Positions 50,346 through 58,867 of a DNA stretch of 59,561 nt are shown piece after piece. Below the pieces are notes generated by a model that was not told where the DNA came from, made no database searches, and was given only the letters and a program-made list of their open reading frames with translations. A program made the position numbers and the translations under genes. The stretch is from Pseudooctadecabacter sp. (GTDB taxonomy: Bacteria; Pseudomonadota; Alphaproteobacteria; Rhodobacterales; Rhodobacteraceae): positions 1 through 59,561 of the forward strand of contig NZ_JAHDGE010000013.1 of assembly GCF_020627745.1 (NCBI RefSeq), written 5' to 3'. Positions within the stretch are counted from its first letter, which is position 1. Every line of letters starts with the position of its first letter.

Positions 50346-51446
50346 TTAGTAATCTGCGACGTTGACCCAAGTACCCGCAGCACTTGAGGCGAATGTGGCG
50401 GCCACGATGCGGTTGACCTCAAGCCCTTCGCGGAACGTGGGCCAGACGGGGCGCTTTTCGGCGATGGCTGTCAGGAAATCCTTGGCCTCGATGATGATCT
50501 GGTCCTGATAGCCGGTGCCGTGGCCCGGTCCCTGACAAAACGGCAGGTAATCGGGGTGTTCCGGCCCGGTGAGGATTTTGCGAAAGCCGCGTTCGGCCTC
50601 GGGCCCTTCGGTGGTGTACAGCCACAGGGCGTTCTGATCTTCCTGATCAAAGCGGATATGGCCGTGGGTGCCGTGGATTTCATAGGCGTAGCCCATCTTG
50701 CGGCCCGTGGCGACGCGGCTGAAGAACATGTGCCCCTGCACGCCGCTTTCAAAGGTGCACATCATCTGCGCCTGATCGTCGTTGGTGACAGGTTCACCGG
50801 CGCGGGTCGGGTGGACGGTTTGCACCATCGCGTTAAGCGTCGTGATCGGCCCCATCAAGGCGCGTGCGCAGTTGATCATGTGGGGGGCCAGATCGCCCAT
50901 GCAGCCGTTGGCGGCGCCTTGTCCGCGCCAGCCGCCGATGTCTGGATCTGCGAAGAAATCTTCGGTCATTTCACCCCGAAACCACGTCACTTTGCCGATG
51001 CGGCCTTCGTCCAACAGCTTGCGCACGTATTGCGTGGCCGGGGTGCGCACGTAGTTGAAACCGACCATGTTGGCCACGCCCGCAGCCTCTGCTGCGTCCA
51101 CCATCGACTGGCTTTGGGCCACGGATACGCCCAGCGGTTTTTCACACAGCACCGGTTTTCCGGCGGCAAAGGCGGCTAGTGCGATGTCGTGGTGGGTCGC
51201 TTGGGGGGAGGCGATGACAATGGCCTCAACCTCAGGGTCGGCCACCATGACACGCCAGTCGGATGTGGCCTTTTCGAAGCCGTACGTCTGGCGGTAGCGT
51301 TCGGCGCTTTCGTCGCTGGATGCGCAGATGTGCACCAGTTTCGGGCGCAGCGCGGTGTCGAAGACACTGGCCACGGCGGCAAAGGCCACGGAGTGCGCTT
51401 TGCCCATGTAACCGCCACCGACGACGCCAATTCCGATGTCTGTCAT
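50346..51446 (-). CDS. Gfo/Idh/MocA family oxidoreductase, second copy
   Basis: A 366-residue dehydrogenase of the inositol/sugar type. The N terminus has IGIGVVGGGYMGKAHSVAFA, then VLCEKPLGVSVAQSQSMVDA, and the active-site region MGDLAPHMINCARALMG. It is not a close copy of the other Gfo/Idh gene in this cluster. The ATG at 51446 has GAGGG upstream and a LacI-type operator 18-35 bp before it, so it heads the minus-strand unit Gfo/Idh - IolE-like - Gfo/Idh. myo-Inositol or a related cyclitol is the most likely substrate class. Confidence 0.9.
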   Translation of the reverse strand: MTDIGIGVVGGGYMGKAHSVAFAAVASVFDTALRPKLVHICASSDESAERYRQTYGFEKATSDWRVMVADPEVEAIVIASPQATHHDIALAAFAAGKPVLCEKPLGVSVAQSQSMVDAAEAAGVANMVGFNYVRTPATQYVRKLLDEGRIGKVTWFRGEMTEDFFADPDIGGWRGQGAANGCMGDLAPHMINCARALMGPITTLNAMVQTVHPTRAGEPVTNDDQAQMMCTFESGVQGHMFFSRVATGRKMGYAYEIHGTHGHIRFDQEDQNALWLYTTEGPEAERGFRKILTGPEHPDYLPFCQGPGHGTGYQDQIIIEAKDFLTAIAEKRPVWPTFREGLEVNRIVAATFASSAAGTWVNVADY

Positions 51447-51463
51447 GATGCCCTCGATCCTAC

Positions 51464-51481
51464 TTTGCAACCGGTTGCAAA
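51464..51481. promoter_or_regulatory. LacI-type operator upstream of the Gfo/Idh unit
   Basis: Perfect 18-bp palindrome TTTGCAACCGGTTGCAAA, containing the same 16-bp core as the operator near 44115. It sits between a candidate minus-strand -10 element and the start codon, so binding there would block initiation. Two identical operators in one 7.4-kb stretch around one LacI gene strongly suggest one regulon. Confidence 0.87.
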
Positions 51482-51482
51482 A

Positions 51483-51512
51483 TGCGTATCTGGCTTTGTG
51501 GTATCGGGTCAA
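51483..51512 (-). promoter_or_regulatory. Candidate sigma70-type promoter of the Gfo/Idh unit
   Basis: On the minus strand, TTGACC (51512-51507) is followed after 18 bp by TACGCA (51488-51483). The operator begins 2 bp downstream of this -10, where the transcription start is expected. The -10 match is weak, so the call rests on the good -35 and on the operator position. Confidence 0.5.
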
Positions 51513-51662
51513 TAGCAATAATGCGTGGCGGCGCAGACGAAGGGTGTGTGAAGAGGCGGCACAGGCCGGTCATGTGCCCAAATTTCATGCGCAAGAAATT
51601 GAATTTTCGACCGATTTTGACGGCGGCCTTGCGTTTTGCGACGAATGATCCGAGGCTGGGGC

Positions 51663-53087
51663 ATGGATAAGCCGAAGACCTTTTTCAATGAGATGATCGG
51701 CAATGGGACCCCGCGTGCGCCTTATGCCAAATACGGGTCCTGGTTTTCGGCGCAGAATGGCGACCGATTGGCCCAGAAAAGCCAAGAGGCCGAGGGTTTT
51801 TTCCGCCGCGCGGGAATCACGTTCAATGTTTATGGTCAGGCGGACGCCGAAGAACGGCTGATCCCGTTTGATCTGGTGCCGCGCATTTTGTCGAACAGCG
51901 AATGGACCAAACTGGCCAAGGGTGTTGAACAACGGGTCCGTGCCATTAATGCGTTTTTGCACGACATTTATAACCGGCAGGAAATTCTGCGTGCGGGCGT
52001 CGTGCCGACACGGCTGATTGCGCAAAACGATGCGTTCCTGCCGCAGATGATGGATTTTGTTCCGCCCGGCGGCGTTTACACCCACATTGTCGGGACGGAT
52101 ATCGTGCGCACCGGTGCGGACGAATTTTTCGTGCTGGAGGACAATGCGCGGACGCCCTCGGGGGTGAGCTATATGCTGGAAAACCGCGAGACGATGTTGC
52201 AGATGTTTCCCGAGCTGTTCAGCCAGATCAAGGTGCAGCGCGTCAGCGATTACCCCAAAAACCTGCGTGCGTCGCTTGAGGCGTCGGCCCCGCCGAACTG
52301 CGAAGGGCGCCCGTTTGTGGTGGTCCTGACGCCGGGTATTCACAATTCGGCCTATTATGAGCACAGCTTTCTGGCGGACCAGATGGGGGTTGAACTGGTC
52401 GAGGGGCATGACCTGCGGATTGTGGATGGCAAAATCGCCGTGCGCACCACGCGCGGCTATCGCACGGTGGACGTGATTTACCGGCGGGTGGATGACGATT
52501 TTCTGGACCCGCTGACGTTCAACCCCACGTCGATGCTGGGCGTGCCGGGCATCATGGATGTGTACCGCGCGGGCAACATCACCATCGCCAACGCCCCTGG
52601 CACAGGCGTGGCGGACGACAAGGCGATTTACAGCTATATGCCGCAAATTGTCGAATTCTACACCGGCGAAAAGGCGATCCTGAAGAACGTGGAAACGCAC
52701 CGCTGTTCCGAGCCTGAGGCGTTGAAATACGTGCTCGACAATCTGGCTGATCTGGTTGTCAAAGAGGTGCACGGATCGGGCGGCTACGGGATGTTGGTGG
52801 GGCCTGCGGCCTCCCGCCAGGAGATTGAGGATTTCCGCGCCAAACTTAAAGCGCGGCCTGCCAATTATATCGCCCAGCCCACGTTGAGCCTGTCCACCGT
52901 GCCTATTTTCACCGACGCCGGTCTGGCCCCGCGCCATGTGGATTTGCGGCCTTTCGCGCTGATGTCGCCGGGGTCGGTTGATATCGCGCCGGGCGGGCTG
53001 ACGCGCGTGGCCCTGACCGAAGGCAGCCTTGTGGTGAATTCCAGCCAAGGGGGCGGCACCAAGGACACCTGGGTGCTGGAGGACTGA
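51663..53087 (+). CDS. Circularly permuted ATP-grasp protein (DUF404/407 type)
   Basis: A 474-residue protein of the circularly permuted ATP-grasp family, whose members ligate amino-acid or peptide-like substrates using ATP. Family parts are LSNSEWTKLAKGVEQRVRAINA-type residues, GVYTHIVGTDIVRTGADEF and FVLEDNARTPSGVSYMLENRE, then NVETHRCSEPEALKYVLDNL and VVKEVHGSGGYGMLVGP. A closing SQGGGTKDTWVLED follows. The ATG at 51663 is chosen over an in-frame start nine codons upstream because a GAGGCTGGGG purine-rich site precedes it. It is the first of four genes with a 1-bp gap, a 0-bp gap and a 31-bp gap. Confidence 0.9.
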   Translation: MDKPKTFFNEMIGNGTPRAPYAKYGSWFSAQNGDRLAQKSQEAEGFFRRAGITFNVYGQADAEERLIPFDLVPRILSNSEWTKLAKGVEQRVRAINAFLHDIYNRQEILRAGVVPTRLIAQNDAFLPQMMDFVPPGGVYTHIVGTDIVRTGADEFFVLEDNARTPSGVSYMLENRETMLQMFPELFSQIKVQRVSDYPKNLRASLEASAPPNCEGRPFVVVLTPGIHNSAYYEHSFLADQMGVELVEGHDLRIVDGKIAVRTTRGYRTVDVIYRRVDDDFLDPLTFNPTSMLGVPGIMDVYRAGNITIANAPGTGVADDKAIYSYMPQIVEFYTGEKAILKNVETHRCSEPEALKYVLDNLADLVVKEVHGSGGYGMLVGPAASRQEIEDFRAKLKARPANYIAQPTLSLSTVPIFTDAGLAPRHVDLRPFALMSPGSVDIAPGGLTRVALTEGSLVVNSSQGGGTKDTWVLED

Positions 53088-53088
53088 T

Positions 53089-54030
53089 ATGCTGGGCAAG
53101 ACCGCAGGTGGATTATACTGGATGTTCAGGGGGTTGGAACGCGCCGAGAATACCGCGCGCCTGATCGAGGCGGGCTTTCGGATTGCTCTCACGCGCTCTT
53201 CCGACCCCACGTCGGACTGGCAGTCTGTCATCGTCACCTCGGCCCAGCAGGGGGCATATCTGGCGCAATATGACACCTACACCAGCCAGAACGTCTGCGA
53301 TTTTCTCCTGCGGGAACCGTCAAACCCAAGTTCGGTCCTATCGGTCGTCAAAGCGGCCCGTGACAACGCACGGTTGGTGCGCACGGCGCTGACGACAGAG
53401 GTCTGGTGCGCGGTCAACGAGACATGGATGGTCCTGACGGAGCTGTTGAAAAAGCCCATCGCGGAAGAGGACGTGCCCCAGACGCTGGAGGCCATTCGCC
53501 AGCAATCGGCGCTGGTGCGTGGGGCGTTGCATGGCACAATGCTGCGCAATGACATCTACAATTTCTGCCGCTTGGGGACGTTCATTGAACGGGCCGACAG
53601 CACCGCGCGGATCATTGATGTGAAATACCACGCGCTGTTGCCGTCACCGTCCTTTGTGGGCAGCCGGCTGGACAATGTGCAATGGGAAATGGTGCTGCGG
53701 TCTGTGTCGGGCCACCGGTCGTTCCGCCACGCGGTCGAGGGCGAATATAACGCCGCCAATATCGTGCAGTTCCTGATGCTGGATGCACGGTTTCCGCGGT
53801 CTTTGGCGTTTTGCGCGGCGGCGATTGTAGAGAACCTTGATCTTTTGGCGCAGGACTACGGCGGGGAGAGCCGCAGCCTTGCAGCGGCGCAAGCCATGCT
53901 GGGGCGGTGCGCAGGGCGGGATGTGTCGTCGATTTTCGAGGAGGGTTTGCATGAATATACCACCCAGATCCTGCGTGACCTTACCATGTTGGGTGCCATG
54001 ATCGAACAACAATACAGGTTCATTCAATAG
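53089..54030 (+). CDS. Alpha-E domain protein
   Basis: A 313-residue, almost all-helical protein of the alpha-E family. Recognisable parts are the N-terminal GGLYWMFRGLERAENTARLIEA, the central DIYNFCRLGTFIERADSTARIIDVKY, and the SLAFCAAAIVENLDLLAQDYG region. Its molecular role is unknown; it nearly always sits beside a circularly permuted ATP-grasp gene and a transglutaminase-like gene, as here. It starts one base after the ATP-grasp stop and ends directly against the next start. Confidence 0.9.
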   Translation: MLGKTAGGLYWMFRGLERAENTARLIEAGFRIALTRSSDPTSDWQSVIVTSAQQGAYLAQYDTYTSQNVCDFLLREPSNPSSVLSVVKAARDNARLVRTALTTEVWCAVNETWMVLTELLKKPIAEEDVPQTLEAIRQQSALVRGALHGTMLRNDIYNFCRLGTFIERADSTARIIDVKYHALLPSPSFVGSRLDNVQWEMVLRSVSGHRSFRHAVEGEYNAANIVQFLMLDARFPRSLAFCAAAIVENLDLLAQDYGGESRSLAAAQAMLGRCAGRDVSSIFEEGLHEYTTQILRDLTMLGAMIEQQYRFIQ

Positions 54031-54828
54031 ATGCGCATCAAGGTTTCCCACCAAACGGAATACACCTACGCCGAACCCGTGTCCGGTGCGCTGCAACAGG
54101 TGCGGCTGTGGCCGGTGGACAGCCCCATGCAACGGGTTACGGATTGGGCGGTGACCGTTGACGGCGGCCGGGTAGAGGCGGGCTACAGCGATCATCACGG
54201 CAATCAGGTGCGGCTTGTCTGTGCCGACGAAGGGGTGCAGGCGTTGACGATTTCCGTCGAGGGGGAGGTCGAGACGGCCGATACCTCGGGAATACTGGGT
54301 CCGGTCTATGGCCGTGCGCCGTTGTGGTATTTCCAGCAGCCCACCGCCCTGACCACCGCAGGCGACGGTGTGACGGCGCTGGCCGACAGCGTGCGCAATG
54401 TCACGGGTGATCTGGACAGATATCACGCGCTGTCGGGCGCCATTCTGGACAAGGTTGCCTATGTGCTGAACCAGACGGACATGGCCACCACCGCCGAGGG
54501 GGCGGTGTCGCAAGGCAGTGGCGTATGTCAGGACCACGCCAATATTTTTGTGGCCGCCGCCCGCCATCTGGGGGCACCGGCGCGCTATGTCAGCGGGTAT
54601 CTGTTCATGGACGACCGGATCGAGCAGGACGCAAGCCATGCGTGGGCCGAGGTGCATCTGGACGGGCTTGGCTGGGTCGGTTTTGATGTGTCGAACCAGA
54701 TCAGCCCCGATGAACGTTACGTCCGCCTTGCTATTGGACGCGATGCCAAGGATGCAGCCCCCATATCCGGGCTGCGGATGGGGCAGGGGGATGAGAACCT
54801 CGTTGTGTCTTTGCAGGTGCAGCAATAG
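54031..54828 (+). CDS. Transglutaminase-like cysteine peptidase
   Basis: A 265-residue protein with the bacterial transglutaminase N-terminal domain (about 1-85, starting MRIKVSHQTEYTYAEPVSGA) and a papain-like transglutaminase core. The catalytic triad is visible: Cys166 in GSGVCQDHANIF, His203 in ASHAWAEVHLDGLGW, and Asp219 in GFDVSNQISPDE. Such proteins are thought to be proteases or amidases, not cross-linkers. No signal peptide is evident. It follows the alpha-E gene with no gap and precedes the Anbu gene by 31 bp. Confidence 0.91.
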   Translation: MRIKVSHQTEYTYAEPVSGALQQVRLWPVDSPMQRVTDWAVTVDGGRVEAGYSDHHGNQVRLVCADEGVQALTISVEGEVETADTSGILGPVYGRAPLWYFQQPTALTTAGDGVTALADSVRNVTGDLDRYHALSGAILDKVAYVLNQTDMATTAEGAVSQGSGVCQDHANIFVAAARHLGAPARYVSGYLFMDDRIEQDASHAWAEVHLDGLGWVGFDVSNQISPDERYVRLAIGRDAKDAAPISGLRMGQGDENLVVSLQVQQ

Positions 54829-54859
54829 GGTGGCTGCCAGACTGATTTAGGGAATCCAG

Positions 54860-55606
54860 ATGACATATTGCGTCGCCATGCGCCTGAACCGCGGCCTTGT
54901 GTTCATGTCCGACACACGGACCAACGCAGGCGTCGACAACTTCGCCTCAACCCGCAAAATGTTTACCTTTACCGTTGAAGGCGAACGCAACATCACATTG
55001 ATGACAGCCGGCAATCTGGCGACCACGCAGGCGATGATCAGCCTGCTTGAGGAACGCACGCAAGCCGCAGATGACCGCGATCCGTCTATCCTGAGCCAGC
55101 CCACGATGTTTCAGGTCGCGCGGCTTGTGGGGGCCACCCTGAAAGAGGTGATTTCCTATTCCGCGCCGGGTGGCCCGGCCTCTGCCGATGCGTTCGGGGC
55201 ATCGGTGATCGTCGGCGGGCAGATCGCGGGCGGCAAGCCCACCATCTTTCTGGTCTATCCGGAAGGCAATTTCATCGAAGTGTCCGAAGACACCCCGTTT
55301 TTCCAGATCGGAGAAACGAAGTACGGCAAGCCCATTCTGGTGCGCGCCTTCGATCCGGATTTGACGTTTGAGGACGCGATGAAGCTGTTGCTTGTGTCCT
55401 TTGACAGCACCGTAAAATCCAACCTCTCGGTGGGGCTGCCCTTTGACGTGCATCTGTTCGAAGACGGACAGTTTGATGCATCGCGCCGGGGCCGGGTCGA
55501 GGTGGATGATCCGGTTTATCGTACCATTTCAACAGGGTGGGGTGAGGCGTTAAAGACAGCACTGGATCAGCTGCCCGCCTACAAGATCACCTCAGACGAG
55601 GTCTGA
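54860..55606 (+). CDS. Anbu-type proteasome-like peptidase
   Basis: A 248-residue member of the proteasome beta-subunit superfamily, the Anbu (ancestral beta subunit/bacterial proteasome homologue) branch. After Met removal Thr would be residue 1 (MTYCVAMRL); the catalytic partners fit the family with Asp17 in MSDTRTNAG and Lys32 in STRKMF, counting from that Thr. The body holds ITLMTAGNLATTQAMISLLEE and the GASVIVGGQI strand. It is not HslV: HslV starts TTI/TTV and needs HslU, which is absent here. Anbu is known to cluster with ATP-grasp, alpha-E and transglutaminase genes, exactly as here. Its substrate is unsettled. Confidence 0.92.
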   Translation: MTYCVAMRLNRGLVFMSDTRTNAGVDNFASTRKMFTFTVEGERNITLMTAGNLATTQAMISLLEERTQAADDRDPSILSQPTMFQVARLVGATLKEVISYSAPGGPASADAFGASVIVGGQIAGGKPTIFLVYPEGNFIEVSEDTPFFQIGETKYGKPILVRAFDPDLTFEDAMKLLLVSFDSTVKSNLSVGLPFDVHLFEDGQFDASRRGRVEVDDPVYRTISTGWGEALKTALDQLPAYKITSDEV

Positions 55607-56074
55607 CAGTTTCAACCGCTGGATTTTCCCTGACGGGCCCTTGGGCAGTTCGGGCAGAAAGTCGATGCAGTCGGGGGATTTGAACGCGCCCAGACGGTCG
55701 TGGCACAGGGCGATCAATACAGCCTCCGACAGGATAGAGCCGCTGCGGATCGCCCCGGCAGCCACAACTGCATCGCGATAGCTTTTGCAGGGCCGCGTCA
55801 AGGCTGCGGCTTCGATGACGTCAGGTTCGGAATAAAGGACTTCGTCGATTTTGCGCGGGGCGATGTTTTCTCCGTCCTTGATGATCAACTCCTTCAAGCG
55901 ACCGGTGACGTCGACATAGCCGTCGGCGTCCATATGTCCCTGATCGCCGGTGCGCAGCCAGTCACCTGCAAAAGTTTTGGCCGTGGCGTCGGGATTGTGC
56001 AGATATTCGGCCAACACATTAGGGCCACGCACGGCGATTTCACCGCTGTGCAAGGGTGGGGCGAGGGCCGCCGT
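55592..56074 (-). pseudogene. AMP-binding acyl-CoA ligase, C-terminal remnant
   Basis: About 160 codons of an AMP-forming ligase C-terminal domain: SGEIAVRGPNVLAEYLHNP, WLRTGDQGHMDADGYVDVTG and GRLKELIIKDGENIAPRKID, then the end with LPKGPSGKIQRLKL and its catalytic lysine. The N-terminal two thirds of the enzyme, including the AMP-binding motif, are missing and an in-frame stop lies at 56077-56075. Its 3' end overlaps the Anbu gene end by 15 bp. It looks like a truncation made when the island on the right formed. Confidence 0.85.
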
Positions 56075-56192
56075 TCAGCCACCTGTCAGAAGGCTCGCAT
56101 GCGTATGAACGACCTCCTTGGGCGTGAAGCGCTTTTCGTGCAACATCCGACAATTCCGATAGTGCCCAGCTCATGGGGTTGAACAACCACAT

Positions 56193-56489
56193 GTGTTTGG
56201 GATGGCCACGGCGCTGGCCTTCGCGGTGACGGCCATTGCGGGTATCCTGCTGGGCGTGCGCACCAGCTTTGGTCTGTCCGCGGGTGGTGTGCGCCTGATA
56301 ATTGGGGGCGAGGATGGGATTATAGGGTGGCTCGGCTATGGTTGGGGCACGATCGTGCGTGGCGTCATTCTAAAGGTCGCGCAGACCCTGGCTCAAAATG
56401 CGCGCCGGTCACATCGCGATTCTAGTCGCCTCGGCCATCCACCCGCAGGGCCCGTTTCCGAGGGTGGAATATTGAGCGCGCGCTGTTAG
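56193..56489 (+). pseudogene. Hydrophobic protein remnant, possibly DUF2975-like
   Basis: A 98-codon open frame with one clear hydrophobic helix (about residues 3-24) and a second, weaker one near 42-64 (GIIGWLGYGWGTIVRGVIL). The piece GVRLIIGGEDGIIGWLGYGWG faintly recalls DUF2975-type membrane proteins. The C-terminal 30 codons look like random low-complexity reading. It lies in the decayed island with no ribosome site, so I treat it as a remnant, not an active gene. Confidence 0.35.
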
Positions 56490-56643
56490 AACCAGCCGCC
56501 TTGCTTAATCGGCCACCGTCATCACGCTCAAGGCACCCAAATCCGTTTGGGGTCTGATCCGCAGCCGCTTGATCTGGAACTTTTCCCCTCAGCTACCGCG
56601 TCCGCACCGACGCCGACGAAGGACCCTAACCCTTGGCCGAACA

Positions 56644-57210
56644 TAGCGCACCATCATCATCTGTTCGGTCAAAGGCGCGATCCATACGCCAACAATGTCG
56701 GATGCTTTGCGCTACACCTATGATGACATCACCGCCCGAGCGATCGAAGCGGTAGAGGCCGGAGCCTTGATCTTGCTCCTTCATACCCGCGACAATAAGA
56801 CGGGCGCGCCTTCAGTGAACCATGACGATAACAGCCCCTTTCTGGGCTGCATCAAACAGGCCAGTGATGTTGTGATGAACATTTTTAACCGGTCAATCGC
56901 TCACACTGTCCATTCAAGACCGGATCAAGCCCGCAGCCACGTTCAGCGCAGAAATGCGCCGCATGAACATGGGGTCGATGAATTTCAGCTTTAACCCGCT
57001 CGCCAGACGCGTCGGCGATGACGATTGAGGGTTCGACTGGGAAAAGGATTATGTCGCAAATCCCCACGGCGACCACCGGCAGCCAGATGGGAGGTCACGT
57101 GGGCGTGGGGCTAGACAACAGCTTGTTCATCTCGCGCGGGGAACGAGCCGAAATCAACGCCCGACGGATGGCGAACGTCAGACCCATATTAGGCCGACGC
57201 GAACATACAG
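56644..57210 (+). pseudogene. Beta-keto acid cleavage enzyme (BKACE, DUF849) pseudogene
   Basis: Pieces of one BKACE protein can be read in order across three frames. In the frame of 56650: IIICSVKGAIHTPTMSD, ITARAIEAVEAGALILLLHT and RDNKTGAPSVNHDDNSPFLG. In the frame of 56921: RIKPAATFSAEMRRMNMGSM and NFSFNPLARRV, then an in-frame stop. In the frame of 57018: GGHVGVGLDNSLFISRGERA followed by a truncated C terminus. At least two frameshifts and one stop are visible, and the HLHAR zinc motif has become LLHTR. Intact relatives convert beta-keto acids with acetyl-CoA. It is dead here. Confidence 0.82.
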
Positions 57211-58115
57211 AGGTTGCCCCTAAAGGATGTTTGGAGCCGCAGCGCCATTGATCCAACTGGTGCCCCAAAGGCCGCGAAAGAGCAGTTGTATATTCTGGAC
57301 GATCTAGCCTTTGGTGCAACATCGAAGGTCGCGCCGAAATTCACATCTCATCCTGCCCGCGCCAGTCTATGGACAGCAGCCTGTAAAGGCCCTGCGTTCC
57401 TCAGTTATTCAACCAATTACCTGATCGACGCCGACAACAGCGTCATCGCTGACGTGGAAGGGACGCGGTCGATACGACAGGGTAAAGTCGGGGCCGTGCG
57501 CGTTTTATTGGATCGTATCAACTAACAGCATGACACCGGCTCTGAGCGTTGGATCGCAGATACAGCGTCCGGTTCTGACCCAGCGCTGGGTTGGCTCGTT
57601 GAGTGGGATATCAAACCTTACATTGCTGTTCTGGAAAAAGGGGGTCGTACCAACGGCACCTGGTTTCGTGCTGACTTTGAATGTGATCCAGAAGATAACA
57701 AATACATGCGCCCCGAAGGTGAGCCGTTAAAGCACTTCTGACGGAATTACTCGGACCCAAACCGTGGCTCAACCGGCAAGGGCGTTGCCCGGCATCAGGC
57801 GTCAAAGCAGACCTGTCAGGCCTGCCCATCGAAGATAAAGTGCGGCCAGACAGATGCGGCGAAGATCACCCGAGAAGAGCATTGCGACGCCCGGCAGGTC
57901 GCCGGGCATATTTAATAAATCAGGCAATGCGCAATCTTTATGCGGCTTCGAAGAAAGGACCAGATGCTTTTCGCCCACCTCAAACGCATCCTTGGGCTGG
58001 GAAGGCTCCGATTGCGCGGCCCATGTGGTACAAATGACGAATTCCCGCCCGCGGCCACCACACAGAACCTCCGGACACTGGCGAAGATATGTCCTGCACC
58101 GTAGCAAACGCGAAA
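57211..58115 (+). pseudogene. IS1182-type transposase pseudogene
   Basis: A degraded IS transposase missing its N-terminal third. In one frame: DDLAFGATSKVAPKFTSHPA and KGPAFLSYSTNYLIDADNSV, then an internal stop at 57523-57525. Continuing after it: RWIADTASGSDPALGWLVEW, GGRTNGTWFRADFECDPEDN, then another stop. In a third frame: DQMLFAHLKRILGLGRLRLR and a FPPAATTQNLRTLAKICPAP end. The STNYLID and MLFAHLKRILGL pieces and the closing LLAATAQNLRKLAK-type end are typical of IS1182-like elements. No terminal inverted repeat could be assigned with confidence, and both flanking genes are cut, so the element is old. Confidence 0.8.
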
Positions 58116-58285
58116 AGCTGAAAAGAAAGACGCTCGCTTTCTACTCTGGAGCGCCACTATTTGCGCCAGCGGCACTTTGTTTTTTACACAATCGGTGGGA
58201 AGCGAATTTTTGCTGCAATTGCAAAGTGTTCGGGATGAAGTTTCCAATGCGGACCTATCGCATATTCAAACGTTTCATTTTTTGA

Positions 58286-58867
58286 GAAACCCACCGCTTG
58301 CTTCCTCGCGAGGCGGCGGAGTTTGCCAAAGCGGTCGAACCTGTCGGGCTCTATTGGCTTGAAGACCCGACACCTGCCGAAGATCAGAATGCCCTGAAAC
58401 TTATCCGCCAGCATTCCACCACGCCCATCGCCATCGGCGAGGTGTTCAATTCCATCTGGGATTGTAACGCGCTGATCGAACGTGAACTGATCGATTTTAT
58501 CCGTATTGCCGTGACCTACGGTGGGGGCATCACGCCTGTCAAACGTATCGTCGACCTTGCCGGATTGCACCACGTCCGGACGGGTTTTCACGGCGCCCCC
58601 AGCCATTCGCCTATTTCCATGGCGGCACAGCACCACTTGAACGCATGGGCTCCGAATTTCGGCATTCAGGAATACCTCGTGCTCGGCACGCCCGAATGTG
58701 ACGCTTTGTTCCCATCCGATCATGTTATGGAAAACGGAATGGTCTACGTCAGCGATGCGCCGGGGCTTGGTGTTGATTTTGATGAAACCGAGGCTGCGAA
58801 ATATGAATACCAAGCGGGCAGCCATCCGGTCGTGCGATTGCAGGACGGGACACTATGGAATTATTAA
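58286..58867 (+). pseudogene. Mannonate-dehydratase-type enolase superfamily, C-terminal fragment
   Basis: About 193 codons of clean reading frame covering the C-terminal half of a ManD/RspA-type enolase-superfamily enzyme. Matching parts are HRLLPREAAEFAKAVEPVGL, YWLEDPTPAEDQNALKLIRQ, IAIGEVFNSIWDCNALIERE, GGGITPVKRIVDLAGL, then the family end GVDFDETEAAKYEYQAG and LQDGTLWNY. The N-terminal capping domain and the first metal ligands are missing, and an in-frame stop lies at 58283-58285. No ribosome site precedes the first TTG/ATG, so it should not be active. The transposase remnant directly upstream suggests the truncation is insertion-related. Confidence 0.87.

Follow-up and report, generated by a model that had tools for sequence, protein, structure and literature searches.

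The Anbu operon of a Pseudooctadecabacter contig and the comparative coupling of its transglutaminase-like protein with Anbu

Anbu is a proteasome-like protein for which structures have been solved and, as a sequence-only reading of the present locus correctly stated, which has no known substrate. What, then, could Anbu be doing together with the three genes that precede it? We addressed this question from a stretch of 59,561 nucleotides of Pseudooctadecabacter sp. (NZ_JAHDGE010000013.1, positions 1 to 59,561), hereafter the window. Its locus 51663-55606 is a complete canonical Anbu operon: genes for an ATP-grasp protein, an alpha-E protein, a transglutaminase-like (TG) protein and Anbu follow one another on one strand in the order that marks membership (Table 1), with gaps of 1 bp (ATP-grasp/alpha-E), 0 bp (alpha-E/TG) and 31 bp (TG/Anbu). 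The identical order was seen again in relatives' loci, and chance open reading frames (ORFs) were ruled out by Pfam and PDB matches far beyond chance. The sequence-only reading had described these four genes with the same gaps, an N-terminal Thr in Anbu, an intact TG triad and four families travelling together. Coordinates, families and order were all reproduced, the triad residues were read in the translation, and the Anbu ORF starts Met-Thr, so that Thr is predicted to be N-terminal once Met is removed. The window operon is an ordinary member of an already known operon type, and the coupling between Anbu and TG seen across relatives is the part worth following up.

Loss of the TG cysteine is restricted to Anbu-free genomes in this sample

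The window TG matched the Pfam models Transglut_core (E value 1.3e-21) and Bact_transglu_N (3.9e-20) and the PDB entry 3isr (7.9e-14). We compared 162 TG proteins from 240 loci, counting for each standalone alpha-E gene the nearest downstream TG match on the same strand, within 2.5 kb and in an ORF of at most 800 amino acids (aa); matches inside one ORF were merged, and the TG of one locus (L147) is a truncated copy missing the His/Asp region. Where the locus contains Anbu, 109/109 TGs kept the catalytic Cys; where it does not, 42/53 kept it and the other 11 have lost it (Fisher test, 2e-6, uncorrected for relatedness). An earlier table made under a stricter rule gave 108 kept and none lost with Anbu, and 41 kept and 10 lost without. 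When the Anbu-less loci were divided by genome, those with Anbu elsewhere showed 3 TGs with Cys, none without and 22 cases lacking a TG, and those with no Anbu found in the genome showed 39 kept, 11 lost and 26 lacking a TG. A single Anbu protein query, which recovers copies down to 31% identity, found none in the genomes of the 11 Cys-less operons, some genomes being incomplete; it likewise matched in 0/19 Anbu-less named genomes and was positive in the phylum and class samples described below. In this sample, Cys loss is thus restricted to Anbu-free genomes. The 80 named loci are those whose alpha-E matched that of the window best, and they may share species with the remaining set. Anbu status also played a part in the choice of loci: 56 of the 63 distinct alpha-E-positive, Anbu-negative genomes of both samples were fetched, and the Anbu-positive ones in part.

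The 11 Cys-less operons comprise four of Devosia type (three Devosia and one unclassified alphaproteobacterium), four of one genus (f6/g19), one each from f17 and f2, and that of Burkholderia lata. On a tree of the ATP-grasp and alpha-E proteins they represent five losses, five being the minimum forced by supported branches, and the presence or absence of Anbu switches 17 times. Branches without Anbu make up 37% of the tree length, and the chance that all five losses fall there is a rough 0.007, with branch length taken as the sole exposure and the tree built quickly under LG+G4, its long branches being flagged. The Cys is replaced by Ser, Ala, Thr, Gly, Met or Pro, or its loop is deleted, and the change lies in G164-V165-C166-Q167, with His203, Asp219, Trp205 and Trp215 retained in 11/11 Cys-less TGs. 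At the other conserved positions (164-167 excluded), departures were similar in Cys-less TGs (35/297) and in Cys-bearing TGs of Anbu-less operons (112/1134); the Cys-less proteins therefore look like retained pseudo-enzymes rather than products of decaying genes. A literature search for such a pseudo-enzyme TG gave no match, from which we claim no absence from print. Overall, the pattern hints that TG and Anbu may work together. As a separate observation, three loci (L053, L114 and L115) carry an extra TG-like ORF immediately 5' of the ATP-grasp gene.

The ATP-grasp/alpha-E core and Anbu

In a phylum sample of 249 genomes, alpha-E was found in 132 and Anbu in 85, with alpha-E present in 84 of these 85; in a class sample of 190 genomes, which overlaps the first by at least 10 Anbu-bearing genomes, alpha-E was found in 70 and Anbu in 54, 53 of them with alpha-E. 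In the one class-sample genome with Anbu and no alpha-E match, the ATP-grasp match begins 123 bases from the contig end (G382). Conversely, 48/132 and 17/70 alpha-E genomes had no Anbu match. The core occurs without Anbu while Anbu rarely occurs without the core, so the ATP-grasp/alpha-E pair is primary and Anbu accessory. Within the pair, an ATP-grasp gene adjoins 224 of the 227 standalone alpha-E genes in the fetched loci, and the remaining three start at most 211 bases from the edge of their stretch.

The window ATP-grasp protein matched CP_ATPgrasp_2 at full length (E value 1.8e-163, profile positions 1-374 of 374), and its residues 5-474 matched the PDB entry 3n6x (1.8e-186), labelled a putative glutathionylspermidine synthase. 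When a 17-row ATP-grasp profile was run against the PDB up to E 10, 3n6x was the sole ATP-grasp structure matched; two further matches were short chains named P57-M4 and P57-M5. Motifs invariant in 138 aligned rows, such as E159-D160-N161, D318-D319-K320 and K367, are present in the window protein. A Yersinia ATP-grasp protein is reported to release phosphate from ATP (PMC6376114). The ATP-grasp C-terminus was also considered as an Anbu-specific docking tail. Its residues are highly conserved (K467 in 136, D468 in 137 and W470 in 136 of 138 rows) across rows that come in part from Anbu-less operons, so the tail does not look Anbu-specific and this candidate was set aside; the Trp of this C-terminus departs in 4/10 rows beside a dead TG.

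The alpha-E protein matched PF04168 (1.4e-85), and like PF04174 this family has a single match in the window genome, whose assembly is 89.84% complete. Its N-part and C-part aligned on each other over 106 columns in a profile comparison (98.6% probability, E value 8.2e-16), compared to 0.3% for a control comparison of the ATP-grasp protein with the alpha-E C-part. Alpha-E thus carries an internal duplication, as judged from these profiles, and its two ER motifs fall on one another in the alignment; E17, R18, E167 and R168 are each found in at least 145/147 aligned rows and all in the window. A PDB search up to E 10 returned no solved relative of alpha-E. The sole match of a literature search for the duplication concerns archaeal pseudomurein, and again we claim no absence from print.

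The window Anbu matched the Pfam Proteasome model (PF00227) with an E value of 2.6e-10. Every PDB match below 0.001 was of Anbu type: 5loy (labelled designed Anbu), 5nyj, 5nyf, 5nyw and 5lox, from 9e-83 to 6e-63, two of which bear just the name Peptidase. Curated proteasome models scored far under their cut-offs, and HslV is encoded by a separate gene elsewhere in the genome. Among 126 aligned Anbu rows, window included, Thr1 is Thr in 125 and Ser in one, and Asp17 and Lys32 are each found in 126/126; the window protein has no propeptide. Proteasome inhibitors are reported to bind Thr1 of P. aeruginosa Anbu (PMC5666114).

Other placements of Anbu were also observed. In six loci (L032-L037, group f29) it lies apart from the alpha-E gene, and three of these (L032, L033 and L034) have an identical pair of genes on either side of it, which in L032 are mutS and a gene for an alpha/beta hydrolase. 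Class-sample genomes such as G279, G283, G292 and G408 carry a divergent Anbu-like group, about 31-39% identical to the window Anbu and located away from alpha-E. In five loci (L074, L078, L083, L090 and L093), Anbu sits in divergent orientation between a long TG-containing protein and a fused ATP-grasp/alpha-E gene, with an unfused ATP-grasp/alpha-E pair alongside. Ten ORFs next to solitary Anbu genes were scanned for a clue to the substrate. The ones with matches encode MutS, a phasin, a histidine kinase, a regulator, TPR proteins, an alpha/beta hydrolase and an NMT1-like protein; they gave no such hint, and this lead was set aside.

A proposed pathway, its nitrogen link and its alternatives

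We tentatively propose, short of calling it probable, that the operon encodes a nitrogen-linked ligase core with two optional hydrolases acting on one common product. The ATP-grasp protein would activate a carboxylate as an acyl phosphate and join it to an amine, and the duplicated helical alpha-E, its constant partner, would hold the substrate or complete the site. The resulting single amide-type product would matter, through its synthesis or its turnover, under nitrogen shortage, and the TG-like cysteine enzyme and Anbu would be optional hydrolases on it. TG catalysis is kept in operons that contain both TG and Anbu, so TG probably prepares the target of Anbu, working before or together with it; after Anbu loss, TG catalysis may become dispensable in some lineages while the protein is retained. 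Combining the Cys and duplication data gives a joint reading that we entertain with caution, below even confidence, in which TG and Anbu hydrolyse one product of the core, either in succession or each requiring the other, and Anbu loss has repeatedly turned TG into a pseudo-enzyme. Selection would maintain the TG nucleophile as long as Anbu is present, a Cys-less TG would persist in a binding or structural role beside the core, and the two ER motifs of the duplicated alpha-E may form a two-fold substrate site. The sequence-only reading had suggested a ligate-and-cleave pathway. This is plausible, and in its favour stand the invariant ATP-grasp motif residues, the phosphate release by the Yersinia protein and the restriction of TG Cys loss to Anbu-free genomes in this sample. 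The shared pathway finds support, a peptide or tag would be a putative product of it, and the idea is not new: the Anbu papers, which already describe the four-gene operon (PMC5666114, PMC6376114), credit Iyer et al. 2009 with a peptide-synthesis or tagging system in which Anbu is the peptidase.

The nitrogen link of relatives' operons is well supported. In P. putida, PP_2686-2688 rise 11 to 15-fold under nitrogen limitation in the wild type (PMC7801951), PP_2685 and PP_2688 are higher on nitrate than on ammonium, and the PP_2688 promoter responds to nitrogen limitation (PMC8050072). In B. cenocepacia, I35_5080-83 are strongly NtrC-dependent, an ntrC mutant showing a log2 drop of 6.0 to 9.4 (PMC5491218). 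Other reports note co-occurrence with urea genes in marine settings (PMC3597751) and list COG3484 in a sigma-54 regulon survey (PMC12316311). We searched operon upstreams for sigma-54-like sites, defined as at least 10 of 12 letters of the consensus, with GG and GC fixed. They are enriched in relatives, with 51/218 upstreams (window included) compared to 33/1500 controls and a first-order random mean of 4.65, the controls being random stretches before stop-to-stop ORFs of at least 250 aa, some of which are presumably not genes. Sites were found in 22/119 operons with Anbu, 29/98 without and 3/9 with a dead TG, and are spread across several groups, with 0/16 in Sphingomonadales. NtrC-like boxes are weak evidence and were not relied on (GCAC-N7-GTGC exact, 5/217 vs 11/1500; with one mismatch, 57/217 vs 302/1500).

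Several observations weigh against this proposal. On the regulatory side, the window upstream region (51447..51662) has no sigma-54 site, its best score being 8 of 12, and sites occur in 1/18 Rhodobacterales and 1/6 of the window's family group. The P. putida rpoN mutant still induces PP_2686-2688 by 14 to 20-fold and Anbu itself (PP_2685) rises just 1.12-fold in the wild type (PMC7801951), its promoter showing no nitrogen response (PMC8050072); expression was unchanged in several other conditions (PMC5666114). As the induction persists without RpoN, strict sigma-54 control is not supported even for relatives. These facts leave our confidence in the mechanism unchanged, because it rests mainly on gene content and the Cys data. 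At the protein level, purified Anbu failed to cleave any standard proteasome peptide (PMC5666114, PMC6376114), and operon proteins showed no specific interaction in the Yersinia pull-downs reported in PMC6376114, both of which count against ligate-and-cleave. One phylum-sample genome (G094, locus L046) has Anbu with no match to alpha-E or the permuted ATP-grasp; among 126 alpha-E genes whose locus includes Anbu, 17 are not followed by a TG in the next 2.5 kb, and 7 of those 17 loci show no TG match anywhere in the stretch. Since 42/53 Anbu-less operons keep the Cys, Anbu loss alone is insufficient to free it. A sister-pair test on the ATP-grasp tree (151 rows, 8 Cys-less) gave 4 to 0, p 0.125, with too few pairs for p 0.05 to be attainable. 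A possible confounder is that 19/19 Anbu-less named genomes have another alpha-E gene, which lies in a long frame (about 740-890 aa). The core also varies: Anbu operons conserve 112 ATP-grasp positions, and at five of these one or more rows next to a dead TG deviate, W463 most (L052 numbering, 4/10 rows), and D263 departs in 4/41 Anbu-less rows beside an intact TG. Among 15 such alpha-E positions, one departs beside a dead TG (F159, 2/11), and in Anbu-less rows with an intact TG the conserved positions of both proteins depart at more sites, in few rows each.

The link between TG Cys and Anbu could itself be chance or the work of a hidden third factor, the two hydrolases having unrelated substrates. 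The losses number just five, the sister-pair result and the second alpha-E leave room for it, and loci were partly picked by Anbu status. We nevertheless judge it somewhat unlikely given losses of 0/109 against 11/53 and the tree-length estimate. In addition, the Cys is intact in at least 11 fetched genomes that have Anbu in the operon and two or more matches to alpha-E (L062, L073, L077, L079, L082, L084, L086, L089, L260, L265 and L270), so a second alpha-E alone does not free it. A tag-and-degrade system, in which ATP-grasp and alpha-E tag proteins with a peptide, Anbu degrades or edits them and TG removes the tag, would suit the proteasome fold of Anbu, its nearly invariant Thr-Asp-Lys site and the binding of inhibitors to Thr1, and tagging has been proposed in print (PMC6376114). 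It is an unlikely account, as no AAA unfoldase partner is known (PMC5666114, PMC6376114), standard peptides stay uncleaved and the core is found without an Anbu match in a good number of alpha-E genomes.

Glutathionylspermidine synthetase/amidase provides the model for a small-molecule conjugate cycle, in which ATP-grasp would couple a peptide with an amine, and the amidases TG and Anbu would set it free again. The label of 3n6x, the only solved relative found, and the nitrogen-linked expression in relatives argue for such a cycle, which we consider improbable, the ATP-grasp profile having met no other ATP-grasp structure. That TG is a true transglutaminase, crosslinking proteins or releasing ammonia and supplied with peptides by Anbu, is one of several ideas in PMC6376114 and would agree with nitrogen-linked expression. 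It leaves unexplained an ATP-grasp/alpha-E pair that occurs without the other genes, and it is very improbable. Families with a transglutaminase domain are often peptidases or amidases, which also speaks against it. Taken together, the ligase core with optional hydrolases is the reading we carry forward. For a protein with solved structures and a missing substrate, the comparison offers a testable order, core first with TG and Anbu optional, and the tie between TG catalysis and Anbu, with the published nitrogen data, points to nitrogen-limited P. putida.

The window locus and known systems

Table 1. Features of the Anbu operon in the window
Feature	Coordinates	Strand	Matches or basis
Circularly permuted type 2 ATP-grasp protein, putative C-N ligase, 474 aa	51663..53087	+	PF14403/PF04174; 3n6x
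Alpha-E protein, 313 aa, internal tandem duplication, ER motifs E17-R18 and E167-R168	53089..54030	+	PF04168
TG cysteine peptidase/amidase, 265 aa, triad C166-H203-D219	54031..54828	+	PF08379 and PF01841; 3isr
Anbu, proteasome-like Ntn-hydrolase, 248 aa, Thr1/Asp17/Lys32 (numbered without Met)	54860..55606	+	PF00227; Anbu structures
Divergent intergenic region 5' of the operon (upstream gene start inferred)	51447..51662		motif scans

The intergenic region upstream of the operon has no inverted repeat of at least 12 bp and no NtrC-like box at up to one mismatch. Across 51300-55800, one sigma-70-type match was found, within Anbu (54933-54960), compared to 1.5 in shuffles, and three terminator-like sites compared to 4.3. 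On the opposite strand, two oxidoreductase genes and a TIM-barrel gene lie upstream, and a short ORF encoding an AMP-binding C-terminal domain lies downstream; no substrate hint was seen in these flanking genes. The region 55592-58867 holds apparent gene remnants: that lone AMP-binding C-terminal domain on the minus strand, a beta-keto acid cleavage enzyme fragment and an enolase-like C-terminal domain.

Among known systems, RloABC of P. aeruginosa and RimB/RimK also pair an ATP-grasp protein with a peptidase, and Rlo adds a transglutaminase-domain protein (PMC12239564). Their families differ, with an aspartic peptidase and a membrane-bound inactive transglutaminase, and neither alpha-E nor Anbu is mentioned in the excerpt of that paper. 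The fused ATP-grasp/alpha-E system, with a fusion of about 800-900 aa and a TG protein of about 700-1230 aa in the loci seen, has domains homologous to those of the window, but fused and more diverged; it often occurs in the same genomes as the unfused core, and its second alpha-E has no match in the window genome at the completeness given above. The Anbu operons of Pseudomonas (P. putida PP_2685-2688) and Yersinia bercovieri share the four families and the Anbu active-site residues with the window operon; that of P. putida is reported as nitrogen-regulated, whereas the window upstream carries no sigma-54-like or NtrC-like site. Finally, the Anbu-less operons of Rhizobium, Sinorhizobium, Devosia and Burkholderia lata have the first three genes in the same order as in the window, and the TG Cys, intact in the window, is lost in the Devosia-type and B. 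lata copies and kept in the Rhizobium-type ones.

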